Shown: in pieces, positions 10,191 through 32,673 of the stretch
How positions within the stretch are numbered: the first letter of the stretch is position 1
Layout: each line of letters opens with the position of its first letter
Source of the DNA: Saprospiraceae bacterium
GTDB lineage: Bacteria; Bacteroidota; Bacteroidia; Chitinophagales; Saprospiraceae
Length of the DNA stretch: 36,309 bases
Reading direction: 5' to 3'
Assembly (NCBI GenBank): GCA_023301005.1
Contig: JALZVK010000088.1
Span: 1-36,309, forward strand
Notes under the pieces: model-generated
Seen by the model: the letters and a program-made list of their open reading frames with translations, nothing else
Told to the model about the DNA's origin: nothing
Databases searched by the model: none
Program-made: the position numbers and the translations under genes

Positions 10191-10198
10191 TACTTTTG
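10191..10198 (+). promoter_or_regulatory. Bacteroidota -7 promoter element (TAnnTTTG) for SRP RNA
   Basis: TACTTTTG ending 5 nt before the predicted RNA 5' end at 10204. Confidence 0.65.
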
Positions 10199-10203
10199 CG
10201 ACT

Positions 10204-10296
10204 GGTGAGGGCCATTCGACCAGCTCCTTTCGAACTCCCCCAGGGTGGAAACGCAGCAAGGGTAGAGGGTTGAGCGGTGCGGAGTGGTTTCTCACC
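10204..10296 (+). ncRNA. ffs: Signal recognition particle RNA (small bacterial type)
   Basis: GGTGAGG...CCCCCAGGGTGGAAACGCAGCAAGGGTAGAGGG...CTCACC: conserved SRP apical hairpin (CAGG..GGAA..GCAGCA) with closing helix GGTGAG/CTCACC, followed by a poly-T tract. Confidence 0.95.
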
Positions 10297-10455
10297 TCTT
10301 TTTTTTTAAGTAATTAGATTATAGAAACTTTATAACTCCATACTAAACTATAAGGTTTCTATTAATTACATACTTAACATACTTGAGACTTGTCCTACCA
10401 TTTTAAACAACCCTAAATTCAATTTTCATTTCTTAATTTATAATAATCAAAATTT

Positions 10456-16177: not shown

Positions 16178-16388
16178 ATTTCTTTAAATTTTAAATGATT
16201 AATAAAACCTATTCTCTTAAAAAGAGAAACATAAGGTTTCTGTAATAATTGTTTCAATTATATATACGTTGAAATTTGGCGAAAGGTACTTTTTTAAATG
16301 TAAAATTCTTGTAAAAAGTTGTTTAAAGTCGTGACGGCACAGATTAAAGTATTAATTTTTGGTAGAATATTACTTACCTTCGCTTCAT

Positions 16389-16471
16389 CTCGTTTGGGGT
16401 GTACCGTTCTTGAATGGTACTGAGATTATACCCATTGAACCTGCCCAGATTATGCTGGGAAGGGAAATGAG
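16389..16471 (+). ncRNA. TPP riboswitch (THI element)
   Basis: CTCGTTTGGGGTGTACC...TACTGAGATTATACCCATTGAACCTGCCCAGATTATGCTGGGAAGGGAAATGAG: matches conserved GGGGUG, CUGAGA, ACCC-GAACCUG and GGGAA blocks with P1 CTCGTTT/AAATGAG. Confidence 0.93.
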
Positions 16472-16537
16472 CCAACCAAAAATATTCATCGTCCGATGGA
16501 TAGGCTTCTCAATGGTGTTTACTAATTTGATTTTTAA

Positions 16538-24018: not shown

Positions 24019-27000
24019 ATGACATTCAAAGCTTCCCTTTGGATAACACTTTTGTTAATCCCGATTATTACTTTTTCGCAACAAACTCACAGATGCCACT
24101 CTGACGAAAGAATGGAAACTGCATTTCAATTAGACCCTGAGTATAAAAAAGCACTACTCAAAGAACAATCTCAACCATCAACTCTTCCATCAAATTCTCA
24201 AAAAGCAATGATGAACATTGTAACGATTCCCGTTCATGTCATCTTAGTTCATCCTCCAGGTCAACCTATTGGGACAGGAGATAATTTTTCATTAGCACAT
24301 GTTGAATCTCAGATTCAAGTTTTAAATGAAGACTTCCGTCGTATGAATGCCGATGCAGGCAACACGCCGTCAGTTTTCCCTGCTGATGATTCTGAGATAG
24401 AATTTTGTTTAGCAGCCTTTGACGAAAATGGAAATCCTACAGATGGAATTACTCGATACGGAACTAATGATAATCTCGACGATGATGAATTTTCCATAAA
24501 ATCTGCCACAGGTTGGGATAGAAATTTATACCTCAACTTTTGGGTCGGATCTGGTTTAGGAGGTATTTTAGGATGGGCGTATTTACCGTCAACTAATAAT
24601 TTGCCCAATGCAACTTTGGATGGAGTAGTGGTGGCATCTTGTACTTTTGGAGGACCAGGTTTTGGTTCTTGTACACCTTATCATTTAGGTAGAACTGGAA
24701 CACATGAGGTTGGACATTATTTAGGGCTGCGACATGTATGGGGAAATGGAGGATGTAATAGTGATGATAATATTGCCGATACGCCAATACAAACTGGTTC
24801 TAATTTTGGTTGTCCTAATCACCCTGATCCAAGTTGTAATAATGGTGGAGATATGTTTATGAATTATATGGATTATGTGAATGATAATTGTATGAATGCA
24901 TTTACGACAGGGCAAGCAACTCGAATGAATCAAATACTCAATAACTCTCGATCAAGTCTTCTGACTGCTGCCAATACTAAATGTCAATCATCAGGAGTGC
25001 CGTTGACTTTATCTATTTCGAGTCAGACCGATGTGACTTGTAATGGTTTAAATGATGGAACGATTACAGTCAATGCAACTGGAGGTTCAGGTACTTTTAC
25101 TTACTCGATTGATGGAGGCAACGGACAAAATAGTAATACATTTACGGGAGTGGCAGCAGGCAATCATGTCATCGAAGTTGACGATGGATCGAGTACACTT
25201 TCGATAACAGTTACGATTACAGAACCTGATGTTTTATTCCCAATTGTTACTGACCAATTTGATGTAAGTTGCTTCGGTGAGAATGATGCCATCCTTACAG
25301 TAAGTGCTGTAGGTGGAACAAATAATACAGGTCCAGGAGGTTATCAGTTTAGTTTGGACAATGGAAATTATACGCCTAATACTTCTTTTTTCAATTTGTC
25401 GGCAGGCGTTTATACCTTGAATGTAAAAGATGAAAATGATTGTATAAGCAATACTTCAGTAATTATAAATGAACCAAGTGAGTTGATTTCATTTATTCAA
25501 AATGAAGTCGGAATTGATTGTGCGGGGCAAAGTAATGGTTCGGTAGAGATTGCTTCGATAGGAGGAAATCCTAATTATCAATATTCATTAGACCAATCTC
25601 AATATACGTTTAACAATGTATTTACAAATTTGTCGAGTGGAACTTATTTCCTTTCTACCTTAGATGATAATGGATGTGATCACCAATTTACTTTTACTTT
25701 GGCGGAGCCAAATTCTATGGTTGTAAATATTTCACAACAAACTAATTTAGATTGTTTTGGAGATTCAAATGGAATGATAGAAGTGAATGCGCAAGGTGGA
25801 GGATCTGGTTTTCAGTATGCCATTAATAATGGTGGATTTCAAAGTAATCCTATTTTTAATAACCTCACAGGAGGTAATTATGTAGTGACCGTGCAAGATG
25901 CGAATGGTTGTATTGAGGTGTTAAATACAACAATATCTGAACCTGCGGAATTGACTATGAATATTGCTAACCAAATTAATGTCAATTGTTTTGGAGAAAA
26001 TACAGGAAGTATTTCTGTTAATGCAATTGGCGGTTCAGGCAATCTGAATATCTCTATGAATGGTACTACGATGACGGGTAATTCTGTTTCGTTTGAAAAT
26101 TTATCAGCAGGGAATTATATGATATTAGTAGAAGATGCAAATAATTGTAGTCAGCTTACTTCTGTTGATATTACTCAAAATGATGAGATAACTCTTTTTG
26201 CAACCAATACTCAAAATGTAAATTGTAACGGAGATAATAACGGACAAATTACAGTCGAGTCACTTGGAGGTGCTGGAGACTTTACCTATTCCATCAATGG
26301 AAATAATCAAAATAATAACAATGTATTTACAAATTTGTCAGGCGGAAATTATACCATCGAATCTACCGATGTAGTAGGTTGTGTAACTGATATAATTGTA
26401 ACTATCGATGAACCTGCCGAACTTATATCTCAAGTTAATCAACAAACTAATATTGATTGTTTTGGGGCAAATAATGGATCTGTTCAATTATCAGCTTCGG
26501 GTGGAAATGGAACGATTCAATTTTCAATTGGAAATGAAACGAACTCCTCTGGAGTGTTTAATAATTTACCTGCGGGAAATTTTAATGCAATTATTTTCGA
26601 TGAAAATAATTGTACGGAAACTTTAAATTTGACTATCACAGAACCATCTGAAATAATTGCACAAGTTGCTAACTCAACTTCAGTAAATTGTTTTGGAAAT
26701 AATAATGGTGCATTTGAAATATCAGTTTCAGGTGGAAATTCCAACTACACATTTGATAATGGAATGACCTCTAATGCTACAGGGATTTTTAATAATCTTT
26801 CGGCTGGTAATTATCTAGTTACGGTTACCGATGGAAATAATTGTACCACTACAATCGAGTCAAACATTTCCCAACCTAATCAATTAGTTACCAATATTGC
26901 CAACCAACAAAATGTAAATTGTTTCGGAGAAAATTCAGGTTCCATATCTCTACAAGCTAATGGCGGTGTAGGTAACATTACATTTACATTAAATGGAAAC

Positions 27001-30000
27001 TCAAATGCCACAGGTGATTTTCAAAATCTTCCAAGTGGAAATTATAGCATAATTGCAACTGATGAAAATAATTGTGAAAGCATTGTTACAATTTCTATTG
27101 ACGAACCTACCGAGTTGAATTTGTCTATTACAAATATTACTCAAGCAAGTTGCGCAGGACAAGAAGGTGCGATTCAAGTCAACGCAACAGGCGGAACTGG
27201 AAGCTATCAATATTCAATTCCTAACAACTCTAATAGTTCTGGAAATTTTTCAGGACTGACAGGTGGAACTTATAATGTACAAGTTACCGATGGCAACGGA
27301 TGTACGACTTCAGTCGAAGTTGACATCAACGAACCGAACGCAATTAATGCTTCAGTTGCTCAAATCCAAAATATCAATTGCTTTGGAAATAATAATGGAA
27401 GTGTCCAAATTACAGCAAATGGCGGCGCAGGAACTTTGACTTATATGTTGGGAAATGAGACAAATACAACTGGACAATTTTCAAATTTAACAGCAGGCAA
27501 TTACGGAGTAATTGTAACAGATGATAATAATTGTACTTCGACAATCGCTTTAGAAATTACTCAACCTGATGAATTAATTACCAATATTTTAACTCAACAA
27601 AATGTAAATTGTTTTGGAGAAAATTCAGGTTCCGTATCGCTACAAGCTAATGGTGGCGTAGGTAACATTACATTTACATTAAATGGAAATTCAAATACTA
27701 CAGGTGATTTTCAAAATCTTACAGTTGGAAATTATAACATAATTGCAACTGATGAAAATAATTGTGAAAGCATTGTTACAATTTCTATTGATGAACCTAC
27801 GGAATTAAATTTATCAGTTACAACTGTTACGCAAGCAAGTTGCGCAGGTGATGAAGGTGCGATACAAGTTGATGCCACAGGTGGAGTAGGAGGTTACCAA
27901 TATTCGATTCCAAACAACTCGAATAACTCTGGAAACTTCGCAGGATTGTCAGGTGGAATTTATAATGTACAAGTCACAGATGCCAACGGTTGTACAGCAA
28001 CAGTTCAAGTTGACATCAACGAACCTAACGCACTTAATGCTTCCGTTGACCAAATCCAAAATGTAAATTGTTTCGGAGATAATAATGGAAGTTTCCAAAT
28101 TATAGGAAATGGCGGCGCAGGAACTTTGACTTATATGTTGGGAAATGAGACGAACACAACTGGACAATTTTCAAATTTGACAGCAGGGAATTATGATGTA
28201 GTTATTGCAGATGATAATAATTGTACGTCAACTATTAATGTATCAATTACTCAACCTGACGAACTTATTATTTCAACGACATCAGTAGCAATGCCAAGTT
28301 GTTGGGAAGGAACAGATGGTGCGGTGAATCTTGCTGCAACAGGTGGAACTGGAAATTTAACTTACAGTCTAGCAAGTCAAAATAACTCTTCAGGTATTTT
28401 CGAAAATTTAGAAAATGGAACTTACCTATTTAATGTAGCAGATGAAAATGGTTGTGTGGATCAGATTGAAATTCAAATCACAGCACCGACATCAATTACA
28501 ACTATGATAAATGATATGCAACATATTTCATGCGCAGGTGCGAATGATGGAATTGCAGATTTGTCAGCAATCGGAGGTACGGGAAGTTATACTTACACTC
28601 TAGGAAATGAATCAAATACAACTGGATATTTTGATGGAATTGCAGCAGGAAACTACGTTGTTTTGATTACAGATGAAAATGATTGTGTATCAGAATTAAC
28701 TTTAGATTATAATGAACCGCAATCAATTACTTTTGTAACAATAAACTTACAAGATATAGATTGTAGTGGCGATGCAACTGGATTTGTTCAGTTAGATGCC
28801 AACGGCGGAACAGGAACATTGACTTATACTTTAGGAACGGAAACGAATACCACAGGTGAATTTGAAAATTTGCCAAGCGGAAATTATGCGCTTCAAATTA
28901 CCGACGAAAATAATTGTATCATAACTGACAACATTCAAATCATAGATGCGACACCTATCCAACCGATTGTCGAAAACATTAGCGATGCCAATTGTTTTGG
29001 AGAAAATTCAGGATTGATTGATTTTACAGCGATGGGCGGTGCAGGCGGATTTGAATATACAATTGGAAATGAAACCAACACCACAGGACTATTTGAAAAT
29101 CTTCCTGCTGGATTTTATGAAATCATTTTTACTGATGCTAATGATTGTACGACTAGTATGAATATTACGATTAATCAACCTTCGCCAGTTATTTCTACTG
29201 CGAATGAGATTACGGGAATACATTGTTATGGAGATTCCAATGGATCGATTCAATTAACTGGAATGGGCGGAATTGGTAACTATATTTATTCCCTAAATAA
29301 TGATTCTAACACGACAGGTTTATTTGAAAATCTAAGCGCAGGCGATTACGATTTCGTCATTCAAGATGGAAATGGTTGTGAGTCGGTTACAACATTTACA
29401 CTTACTCAACCTGATGAAATTTTAATTTCAATTATAGATGAAACTCCTGCTGATTGTGCGGGAAGTGCAACAGGTACGGTAACTGTACAAGGTATGAATG
29501 GCGTAGGAACATTTGAATATCAATTAAATAACGAAACGAACACGACAGGGATTTTCGAAAATCTTGCAGCAGGGATTTACGATTTGGTAGTGACAGATGC
29601 GAATGGATGTATAGCTGAAAGGAGTGTTCCAGTTTCTGAAAATAGCGATATAGCAGTAGAGAGTAATTGGTCGATGAATGTCGATTGCTTTGGAAATGAT
29701 AATGGAGAAATTCATGTGGTGGCTGCGAGTATAGCAGGTGCAGTTACTTTTGAATTGGATGGAATAGGTACAATTAGCAGTACGGGAGATTTCGAAAATC
29801 TACCTCCAGGAATTTATAATGTTATCATTACTGATGTCAATAATTGTTCGCTCATTCTTCCTTTCGAAATTACAGAACCAATGGAAGTGAATTTAGAAGT
29901 TACTGCAATTTCTAATATTGATTGCTTTGGAGATGATACTGGAGTTGTCAATTTAAATGCGACAGGCGGTGCTGAAAATTTCACCTATACTATAGATGGA

Positions 30001-30624
30001 AATTCCAATATGATAGGAATTTTTGAAAATCTTTCAGCAGGAACTTTTACTGCGAATGTAGTAGATGGAAATGGTTGTACGCAAATGCAAACTATCGAAA
30101 TCGTTCAACCTGACGAACTTACTATTTCACTTAATGCTTCAACTCCTGACCTCGGTAACGATGATGGAAGTGCGACTTTCGATGGAGTAGGAGGTGTGAG
30201 TCCGTACACTTATTCCATAAATGGAATAGATTATCAGAGTGTAAATATCTTTGAAAATTTGTCAGGAGGTGGTTACGATATTTTCATTCAAGATGCGAAT
30301 GGTTGTATTACACAATCGACATTTACGATAGAAATGCAGACGAGTACATTTACACCTAACAATACAATTACAAGTTTGGATATTTTTCCAAATCCATTTT
30401 CTGAAAATTTATTTTTAGAAATAAACATTACAATAGCGCAGCAATTCCAAATCAATATGTGGACAGTTACAGGACAAGTAGTCTATCAGAATAATGTTGA
30501 TTTGGGACAAGGGAAACATACGATTCCTTTAGATTATGATACTGGAATGGCAGCGGGAGTTTATGTATTGCAAGTGAGTAATCAGGATGGCGAGGTTGGA
30601 TATTTTAAATTAATTAAACAGTAA
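24019..30624 (+). CDS. Secreted M43-type (pappalysin/cytophagalysin-like) metalloprotease with 23 SprB-like repeats and T9SS type A sorting domain
   Basis: Signal peptide; HEVGHYLGLRH zinc motif with downstream MNYMDYVNDNCMNAFTTGQATRM Met-turn; ~77-aa repeats (NCFGENSGSI..GGxGxxxYxLxNxxNTTGxFxNLxAGNYxVxVTDxNNC..xITEP); C-terminal LDIFPNPFSENLFLEI...TGQVVYQ...GVYVLQVSNQDGEVGYFKLIKQ. Confidence 0.92.
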   Translation: MTFKASLWITLLLIPIITFSQQTHRCHSDERMETAFQLDPEYKKALLKEQSQPSTLPSNSQKAMMNIVTIPVHVILVHPPGQPIGTGDNFSLAHVESQIQVLNEDFRRMNADAGNTPSVFPADDSEIEFCLAAFDENGNPTDGITRYGTNDNLDDDEFSIKSATGWDRNLYLNFWVGSGLGGILGWAYLPSTNNLPNATLDGVVVASCTFGGPGFGSCTPYHLGRTGTHEVGHYLGLRHVWGNGGCNSDDNIADTPIQTGSNFGCPNHPDPSCNNGGDMFMNYMDYVNDNCMNAFTTGQATRMNQILNNSRSSLLTAANTKCQSSGVPLTLSISSQTDVTCNGLNDGTITVNATGGSGTFTYSIDGGNGQNSNTFTGVAAGNHVIEVDDGSSTLSITVTITEPDVLFPIVTDQFDVSCFGENDAILTVSAVGGTNNTGPGGYQFSLDNGNYTPNTSFFNLSAGVYTLNVKDENDCISNTSVIINEPSELISFIQNEVGIDCAGQSNGSVEIASIGGNPNYQYSLDQSQYTFNNVFTNLSSGTYFLSTLDDNGCDHQFTFTLAEPNSMVVNISQQTNLDCFGDSNGMIEVNAQGGGSGFQYAINNGGFQSNPIFNNLTGGNYVVTVQDANGCIEVLNTTISEPAELTMNIANQINVNCFGENTGSISVNAIGGSGNLNISMNGTTMTGNSVSFENLSAGNYMILVEDANNCSQLTSVDITQNDEITLFATNTQNVNCNGDNNGQITVESLGGAGDFTYSINGNNQNNNNVFTNLSGGNYTIESTDVVGCVTDIIVTIDEPAELISQVNQQTNIDCFGANNGSVQLSASGGNGTIQFSIGNETNSSGVFNNLPAGNFNAIIFDENNCTETLNLTITEPSEIIAQVANSTSVNCFGNNNGAFEISVSGGNSNYTFDNGMTSNATGIFNNLSAGNYLVTVTDGNNCTTTIESNISQPNQLVTNIANQQNVNCFGENSGSISLQANGGVGNITFTLNGNSNATGDFQNLPSGNYSIIATDENNCESIVTISIDEPTELNLSITNITQASCAGQEGAIQVNATGGTGSYQYSIPNNSNSSGNFSGLTGGTYNVQVTDGNGCTTSVEVDINEPNAINASVAQIQNINCFGNNNGSVQITANGGAGTLTYMLGNETNTTGQFSNLTAGNYGVIVTDDNNCTSTIALEITQPDELITNILTQQNVNCFGENSGSVSLQANGGVGNITFTLNGNSNTTGDFQNLTVGNYNIIATDENNCESIVTISIDEPTELNLSVTTVTQASCAGDEGAIQVDATGGVGGYQYSIPNNSNNSGNFAGLSGGIYNVQVTDANGCTATVQVDINEPNALNASVDQIQNVNCFGDNNGSFQIIGNGGAGTLTYMLGNETNTTGQFSNLTAGNYDVVIADDNNCTSTINVSITQPDELIISTTSVAMPSCWEGTDGAVNLAATGGTGNLTYSLASQNNSSGIFENLENGTYLFNVADENGCVDQIEIQITAPTSITTMINDMQHISCAGANDGIADLSAIGGTGSYTYTLGNESNTTGYFDGIAAGNYVVLITDENDCVSELTLDYNEPQSITFVTINLQDIDCSGDATGFVQLDANGGTGTLTYTLGTETNTTGEFENLPSGNYALQITDENNCIITDNIQIIDATPIQPIVENISDANCFGENSGLIDFTAMGGAGGFEYTIGNETNTTGLFENLPAGFYEIIFTDANDCTTSMNITINQPSPVISTANEITGIHCYGDSNGSIQLTGMGGIGNYIYSLNNDSNTTGLFENLSAGDYDFVIQDGNGCESVTTFTLTQPDEILISIIDETPADCAGSATGTVTVQGMNGVGTFEYQLNNETNTTGIFENLAAGIYDLVVTDANGCIAERSVPVSENSDIAVESNWSMNVDCFGNDNGEIHVVAASIAGAVTFELDGIGTISSTGDFENLPPGIYNVIITDVNNCSLILPFEITEPMEVNLEVTAISNIDCFGDDTGVVNLNATGGAENFTYTIDGNSNMIGIFENLSAGTFTANVVDGNGCTQMQTIEIVQPDELTISLNASTPDLGNDDGSATFDGVGGVSPYTYSINGIDYQSVNIFENLSGGGYDIFIQDANGCITQSTFTIEMQTSTFTPNNTITSLDIFPNPFSENLFLEINITIAQQFQINMWTVTGQVVYQNNVDLGQGKHTIPLDYDTGMAAGVYVLQVSNQDGEVGYFKLIKQ
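25012..30348 (+). repeat. Array of 23 SprB-like repeat units (~76-79 aa each)
   Basis: Units delimited by eye from conserved Cys pairs and terminal EP/QP. Confidence 0.9.
26887..28266 (+). repeat. 690-bp tandem duplication covering three SprB units (units 9-11 and 12-14)
   Basis: 26887-27576 vs 27577-28266: near-identical DNA stretches, e.g. AATGTAAATTGTTT[C/T]GGAGAAAATTCAGGTTCC and GGCGGCGCAGGAACTTTGACTTATATGTTGGGAAATGAGAC, at 690-nt offset. Confidence 0.92.
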
Positions 30625-31711: not shown

Positions 31712-32434
31712 ATGAATCATCCAAATTATAAAAGAGAAACGAGATACGGTTTACCAGAAGCTGACCAAATTCTATACAATAGAAATTACGTAGTTGGTTA
31801 TTCCTATTATTTCAGGCAAGCCAAATGGGCATTAGAAATAGTTGATTCCGAAGAATCTGAAGTAGAACGAAAAGATCACTTTCGTTCAGATTATAGAATT
31901 CCAGAAAGATTTAGAGCGGATAAAGAAGTCTATGAAGGTTCAGGTTATCATCGTGGTCATCTAGTGGCAAGTGCTAATAAGTTGGAAAGTGAAATCCATA
32001 ATAGTGAGACTTTTTTACTTTCTAATATGTCTCCTCAAAAACCTAAATTCAATAGCGGTATCTGGAAAAAATTAGAAGATGCTGTAAGAAAATTAGACCA
32101 ACAAGAAAGCGTATTTGAAACCTATGTAATATCTGGACCTATATTTTATTTTGATAAAGATGTGATTATGATGGGCGATGAAAATGAAAAAATCAAAGTG
32201 ACTTTACCGATTCCACATGCTTTCTTTAAATCAATTCTGGTAGAAAAAAATACAGGTACGATTAATATGTGGTCTTTTATTATTCCAAATAAAAAGTCGA
32301 GTAAAGAACTAGATGAGTTTTTAGTAGAAACATCTAAAGTAGAAAAAGTATCAGGCTTGTTATTATGGGAGACGCTTCTTGGTACCAAAATGATTAATAA
32401 GAAAAATAAAATATCGAAGATGTGGAAGTATTGA
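31712..32434 (+). CDS. DNA/RNA non-specific endonuclease (NUC1 family)
   Basis: YVVGYSYYFRQAKWALE, GSGYHRGHLVASANK, ETFLLSNMSPQKPKFNSGIWKKLE, VISGPIF. Confidence 0.85.
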   Translation: MNHPNYKRETRYGLPEADQILYNRNYVVGYSYYFRQAKWALEIVDSEESEVERKDHFRSDYRIPERFRADKEVYEGSGYHRGHLVASANKLESEIHNSETFLLSNMSPQKPKFNSGIWKKLEDAVRKLDQQESVFETYVISGPIFYFDKDVIMMGDENEKIKVTLPIPHAFFKSILVEKNTGTINMWSFIIPNKKSSKELDEFLVETSKVEKVSGLLLWETLLGTKMINKKNKISKMWKY

Positions 32435-32673
32435 ATAGAACACGGATGCCGCGGATTGAGCGGATTTTAGCGGATTTTGACGATTAAACTTGTATGGATT
32501 TTACGAGCGACTTTGTATGGACTTTACGATTGAACTTATTTATCAATTTTAAATAAAAAAAACAAAGTCGCTAGTCAAAAAAAAATCAAACAAGTTAGCT
32601 CGAAAAAAATCCATACAAAGTCGCTCGTCAAAATCCGCTAAAATCCGCTCAATCCGCGGCATCCGTGTTCTAT
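32435..32673. repeat. 239-nt element with perfect 49-bp inverted termini, GCGGATTTTA word family
   Basis: ATAGAACACGGATGCCGCGGATTGAGCGGATTTTAGCGGATTTTGACGA (32435-32483) and its exact reverse complement (32625-32673). Confidence 0.95.

Follow-up and report, generated by a model that had tools for sequence, protein, structure and literature searches.

A palindromic repeat downstream of an endonuclease gene in a Saprospiraceae genome is probably an ORF-less copy of a GxxExxY-associated mobile element

Among described systems, the REP/REPIN elements and their RAYT partners come closest to the repeat reported here. REPs are small intergenic palindromes present in many copies, with a preference for gene 3' ends and with ends that provide stop codons (PMC3733652; PMC12306157); their termini can supply TAG stops (PMC3733652), and in E. 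coli those located 15 nt or less from a stop codon lower translation (PMC12306157). Their mobilisation is presumed to occur in trans, through a small gene for a single-domain endonuclease that has the same repeats on either side. The family described below resembles them in its copy number, its placement and its stop-supplying ends, and its candidate partner is likewise a small endonuclease-like gene between the same repeats, but this partner is a predicted PD-(D/E)XK protein, GxxExxY, rather than a Y1 HUH enzyme. Its arms are arrays of ~10-bp units reaching 68 nt or more, compared with 6-9 bp stems in most REPs, and the elements are about 95-240 nt long with the end TTGATAGAACACGGATG, whereas a REP is a 20-40 nt palindrome with a GTAG or CGTC tag. 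MITEs are also similar, being ORF-less, dispersed and equipped with inverted ends that are shared with a longer, gene-carrying element of the same genome, but here there is no DDE transposase partner, no target-site duplication was recognised and almost the entire element is stem. The intervening sequences of 23S rRNA, hairpin-forming elements around a small ORF (S23/IVP), are regarded as selfish (PMC4990558); those elements interrupt rRNA, whereas the hairpins described here lie between protein genes and are associated with GxxExxY. The archaeal Hjc Holliday-junction resolvases, lambda exonuclease and Cas4-like nucleases appear from a structure model to share a PD-(D/E)XK core with GxxExxY, although no sequence-level relation to it is found in the PDB and junction cleavage by GxxExxY is hypothetical.

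The repeat occupies positions 32435-32673 (239 nt, no strand assigned) of the window, the whole 36,309-nt stretch of DNA that was analysed. Its left arm (32435-32483, + strand) is an exact 49-nt copy of the family consensus, ATAGAACACGGATG-CCGCGGATT-GAGCGGATT-TTAGCGGATT-TTGACGA, built of units of ~9-10 bp, and its right arm (32625-32673, - strand) is the perfect reverse complement of the left, as a sequence-only reading of the window had reported. Ungapped extension lengthens the arms to 68 nt at 93% identity. The inner left arm (32476-32544, + strand) consists of 23-nt units in tandem of the TTTTACGAGCGACTTTGTATGGA type, the boundaries of the last unit being placed by eye, and is followed by an A+T-rich tip or loop region (32545-32560) that resembles the centres of copies L008, L009 and L010. 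The units of the inner right arm (32561-32628, - strand) stand one unit out of register with the left side. This accounts for the inner word that the same reading had correctly placed near both arms in inverted orientation and at shifted spacing: ACGAGCGACTTTGTATGGA occupies 32503-32521, its reverse complement occupies 32610-32628 and shares 4 nt with the right arm, and the displacement is a one-unit register shift of the 23-nt tandem unit (family D3), which fits the loss or gain of one unit. Folded as RNA, the hairpin has a predicted energy of -130.9 kcal/mol against -45.6 +/- 4.4 for shuffled sequences (z -19.5), and is therefore far beyond chance. Nothing exceeded an Rfam gathering score at 32435-32673, and identity with an Rfam RNA family was rejected. 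Elsewhere in the window, a TPP riboswitch (16385-16482) and a Bacteroidales small SRP RNA (10196-10301) do exceed these scores, and a 2201-aa ORF (24019-30624) rich in degenerate tandem repeats, with a metalloprotease-like region at its N terminus, apparently encodes a secreted protein.

Both neighbouring genes lie outside the element on the + strand. It begins directly 3' of the stop codon of a DNA/RNA non-specific endonuclease gene (Endonuclease_NS, PF01223; 31712-32434) and ends 46 nt upstream of an acyltransferase gene (PF01553; 32720-33298). The endonuclease stop (TGA, 32432-32434, + strand) is part of the element's terminal motif, TTGAATAGAAC, and comes one codon later than in the orthologue of G064, a genome of the same genus. 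The sequence-only reading had suggested looking for an empty site between orthologues of the two genes. No clean one came to light for the window copy: the congener examined has an endonuclease orthologue but does not preserve the synteny around it, and the acyltransferase is kept elsewhere in G062-G064.

The repeat is one copy of a dispersed family, a fact invisible from the window alone. A blast search of its own genome (4.17 Mb in 448 contigs, 67% complete) gave 91 hits over about 30 contigs. Related hairpins occur at about 30 sites, and the 21 complete copies extracted are about 95-240 nt long, with the consensus ends given above and arms of nnnCGGATT units. As the family is present at so many different sites and in several other genomes, an assembly palindrome artefact is unlikely and was rejected. 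In both arms the window copy is identical to its subtype consensus, suggesting that the hairpin is young and supporting the recent origin put forward in the sequence-only reading. The words within an arm do differ from one another, as had been noted, because they already differ in the family consensus. The large copies mostly resemble one another at their centres, and where the core is asymmetric (five copies) one orientation aligned better in 10 of 10 pairwise comparisons, which indicates that whole elements were copied rather than arms at each site; these alignments support dispersal of the hairpins as whole units. Searches by blastn returned no plasmid homologue of the window hairpin, inspection of the flanks by eye revealed no target-site duplication, and no exact empty site was seen for a hairpin copy. 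Two copies (L009, 3585-3860; L011, 2035-2295) carry an identical extra block, TCTACC(TTT)GTCGGCAGACAGG, at the same place in both arms, forming a palindrome nested symmetrically within another. Local scans located this block in L009 and L011 only; L064 (G046) has a similar nesting. A second, short palindrome family, CCTGCCTTTGCCGGCAGGCAGG, is found in the same genome at L016 5187, L020 216 and 366, and L021 1091.

The hairpins are strongly concentrated at gene ends. With genes taken as mechanical ORFs of at least 100 aa, 16 of the 21 copies start 10 nt or less from a stop codon, compared with 5.4% of random element-free intergenic positions (binomial p about 1e-16), and loci carrying GxxExxY follow the same trend (30/63 within 20 nt). 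Often it is the terminus of the element itself (end TTGATAG) that provides this stop, as TGA or TAG. This preference could reflect selection instead of insertion targeting. At the site between GT9 and beta-lactamase2 genes (L030 3487-3591; L253-L256) the first gene ends at the same residue in all five genomes of the genus, and its stop belongs to an element-like end (TGATAGAACACGG in G000; TAGCCACAGA or TAGCCACGAA in the others). Different unit words stand at this identical stop codon in the five congeners; a hairpin is visible in two of them (better in G061, weak in G062), and G064 retains a 22-nt remnant only. The comparison of arm co-variation among relatives, proposed for the window locus, was made at this other family site, where the congeners differ in their words and some have paired arms. 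Replacement, re-insertion or conversion may each have produced this pattern.

A candidate partner gene is present in the same genome, where GxxExxY (PF13366) is represented by four full genes and two partial ones. The gene on contig C71, a clear member of TIGR04256 (GxxExxY; 137 bits, cut-off 35) and of PF13366 (PDDEXK_3; 141 bits, cut-off 22), lies between inverted arms of nnnCGGATT words (GGGAACACGGATGACACGGATTTTTACGGATT ... AATCCGTGTCATCCGTGTTCCC), and its left arm aligned to every hairpin tested with scores of 16-43, against a shuffle maximum of 10-15. The ORF-less hairpins and this gene-bearing element therefore share inverted ends within one genome, as expected of MITEs in the broad sense. 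The other GxxExxY copies sit in arrays of other words (CGCAGAGG, CACATAG, CACAGAG). In G064, which gave 61 hairpin hits, family hits flank a GxxExxY gene at C41:27134-27463, and among the 38 genomes of the host family that were compared GxxExxY was found in 10 of 10 with hairpin hits and in 16 of 28 without (Fisher p 0.016), so the gene also occurs where no hairpins of the window's word are detectable. A parallel arrangement with a different ORF and word (GACGGTT) was observed at L045 (G000:C233, 1501-1815), where a PF05635 four-helix S23/IVP gene lies between inverted arrays (GACGGTTGACGG / CCGTCAACCGTC); its presence in arrays of another word suggests that mobility may lie with the arms and that the ORF may be replaceable.

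The predicted properties of GxxExxY are those of a small nuclease. Eight residues (G22, G24, E27, Y30, D66, E76, K78 and F108) are invariant in 57 sequences, with the motif G-x-G-x-x-E-x-x-Y, and the AlphaFold model built from these sequences has a pLDDT of 96.8; a model from 4 sequences (pLDDT 45) was discarded. Foldseek matched the model to SSO0001 (4ic1), LHK-Exo, lambda exonuclease and Hjc resolvases, with probabilities of 0.97-1.0 for the best hits of the Hjc, lambda-exonuclease and Cas4-like groups, but the similarity (TM 0.4-0.6) extends to the superfamily and no further, and does not determine the reaction. Sequence profiles run against the PDB found no solved relative. GxxExxY combines the conserved D ... 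ExK residues (D66, E76 and K78) with the corresponding fold, and is accordingly predicted to be a PD-(D/E)XK nuclease. We infer that it would act catalytically and recognise its cognate unit array.

The association of GxxExxY with inverted arrays is general. Eighty named loci were collected from Bacteroidota, Desulfobacterota, Planctomycetes, Chloroflexi, Verrucomicrobia, Spirochaetes, an archaeon and others, and 74 could be tested for an inverted repeat scoring at least 14 within 150 bp of the ORF ends, with 418 other ORFs from the same loci as controls. Such a repeat flanks GxxExxY in 38 of the 74 (51%), against 0.24% of the control ORFs (p about 1e-23); among swapped arms, 5.4% reached the score. 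Units occur at 0.85 per 150 bp upstream in sense orientation and at 0.68 downstream in antisense, compared with 0.12. Bracketing by inverted arrays of ~10-bp units is thus a general feature of GxxExxY. The word class requires 9 changes on a tree of 87 proteins, against 22.1 after shuffling (0/200), and in these sequences the unit word follows the protein clade rather than the host phylum, word clades spanning phyla. The agreement would also be expected from simple co-inheritance of gene and arms, and is consequently no proof of protein-DNA recognition. In Flavobacterium, the gene and its arms are present or absent at one orthologous site: the intergenic region between 2OG-oxygenase and SUI1-like genes measures 580-634 bp in three loci with GxxExxY and arms, and 65-115 bp in five relatives without the element. 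This polymorphism was seen at one site and concerns a gene-bearing relative of the window copy, for which congener synteny is broken. GxxExxY was not found in phages.

The best reading of the window hairpin is as a MITE- or REP-like derivative of a GxxExxY-associated mobile element. It belongs to a dispersed family, its arms are common to the C71 GxxExxY element, and it is placed at a stop codon with ends that bear stops; the repeat is probably a recently dispersed copy, lacking an ORF, of a palindromic element in which, at full length, GxxExxY lies between the same arrays. In the mechanism we propose, GxxExxY would bind the unit array cognate to it, perhaps in the form of an extruded cruciform or of a single-stranded hairpin at the replication fork. 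By nicking or resolving this array, it would allow the hairpin to be copied or to move to a new site. Hairpins without an ORF would be mobilised in trans, by analogy with the supposed action of RAYT on REPs. Insertion at the 3' end of a gene would be tolerated because the terminus (TTGATAG, TTTAGCC or TAGAAC) itself supplies a stop codon, and the hairpin might afterwards also serve as a 3'-UTR stem-loop.

The REP-like traits of the family raise the question of whether it consists of REP or BIME-type palindromes moved by a genome-encoded RAYT (TnpA-REP, a Y1 HUH transposase). This is very improbable, since the family lacks the GTAG/CGTC tag, its arms are several times longer than REP stems and the gene inside its arms is GxxExxY, not RAYT. 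Y1_Tnp (PF01797) was absent from the 67%-complete genome in a search that does detect it in control genomes, and a RAYT partner was rejected. It is unlikely, too, that the hairpins and GxxExxY belong together while host replication or repair, or an unseen transposase, moves the DNA, leaving GxxExxY as a passenger, a maintenance nuclease or a regulator. The incompleteness of the genome leaves room for an unseen transposase, the structural matches of GxxExxY reach superfamily level only and the S23/IVP gene occupies a similar position between GACGGTT arrays, but the unit word follows the GxxExxY clade across phyla and the catalytic residues are invariant.

That the repeat is a host-recruited 3'-UTR hairpin (a terminator, mRNA stabiliser or translational regulator) held at gene ends by selection is improbable: the RNA hairpin is very strong, most copies lie close to stop codons and E. 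coli REPs in such positions affect translation, but the copies are degenerate and spread over unrelated genes, congeners carry different words at one site and G064 keeps only its remnant there. Such a role is compatible with mobility as a later function. Arm copying or active homogenisation at the locus itself, by template switching at a quasi-palindrome or by gene conversion and without any element, is very improbable. It would account for the exact 49-nt arms, for the extra block shared by both arms in L009 and L011 and for the differing words, some with paired arms, at one orthologous site, and the arms of one copy share a modest excess of non-consensus changes (41 against 25.7 expected; 199/20,000 permutations). 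However, the dispersed family has a common consensus, the asymmetric cores are shared in one orientation, and arm identity in the 21 copies is 75.6% within a copy and 73.3% between copies (reached by 716/20,000 permutations). Arms within a copy being barely more alike than arms of different copies, most copies drift freely and the arms are not generally homogenised. Homogenisation, with little support from the permutation test, was rejected as a general cause; the active homogenisation suggested by the sequence-only reading is not needed, and what stands of it is that arm-to-arm correction may happen occasionally at best.

Arms that bracket a small unstudied gene in many bacteria and an archaeon point to a poorly described class of mobile element. 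We give an even chance to the broader proposal that this is a separate and very widespread prokaryotic class, in which a gene for a ~120-aa GxxExxY nuclease lies between clade-specific arrays of ~10-bp units, gives rise to ORF-less hairpin derivatives, spreads by way of hairpins or cruciforms and lands on stops that its own ends supply. No description linking GxxExxY to inverted unit arrays or to mobility was found in the open-licence PMC literature, which is no proof of novelty. If the proposal is true, an orphan family annotated over many bacterial phyla and an archaeon without an assigned role would gain a function, short degenerate intergenic repeats of the CACGGAT, ACAGGAT, CACGAAT and CACAGAG types would gain an origin, and a second system beside REP/RAYT would be recognised in which a tiny nuclease shapes gene 3' ends. 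Because the unit words are clade-specific, recognition lends itself to a direct test in vitro.

The contexts of the gene-bearing loci are varied. In Bacteroides, the GxxExxY gene and its arms follow radA. At L206 (1440-1960), GxxExxY with arms of the CGCGAAGG type separates fabD from fabG within a cluster of fatty-acid genes in Sphingomonas. The copy at L146 (2989-3400) in Flavobacterium sasangense has its GxxExxY reading frame broken by a stop codon, and so looks decayed.
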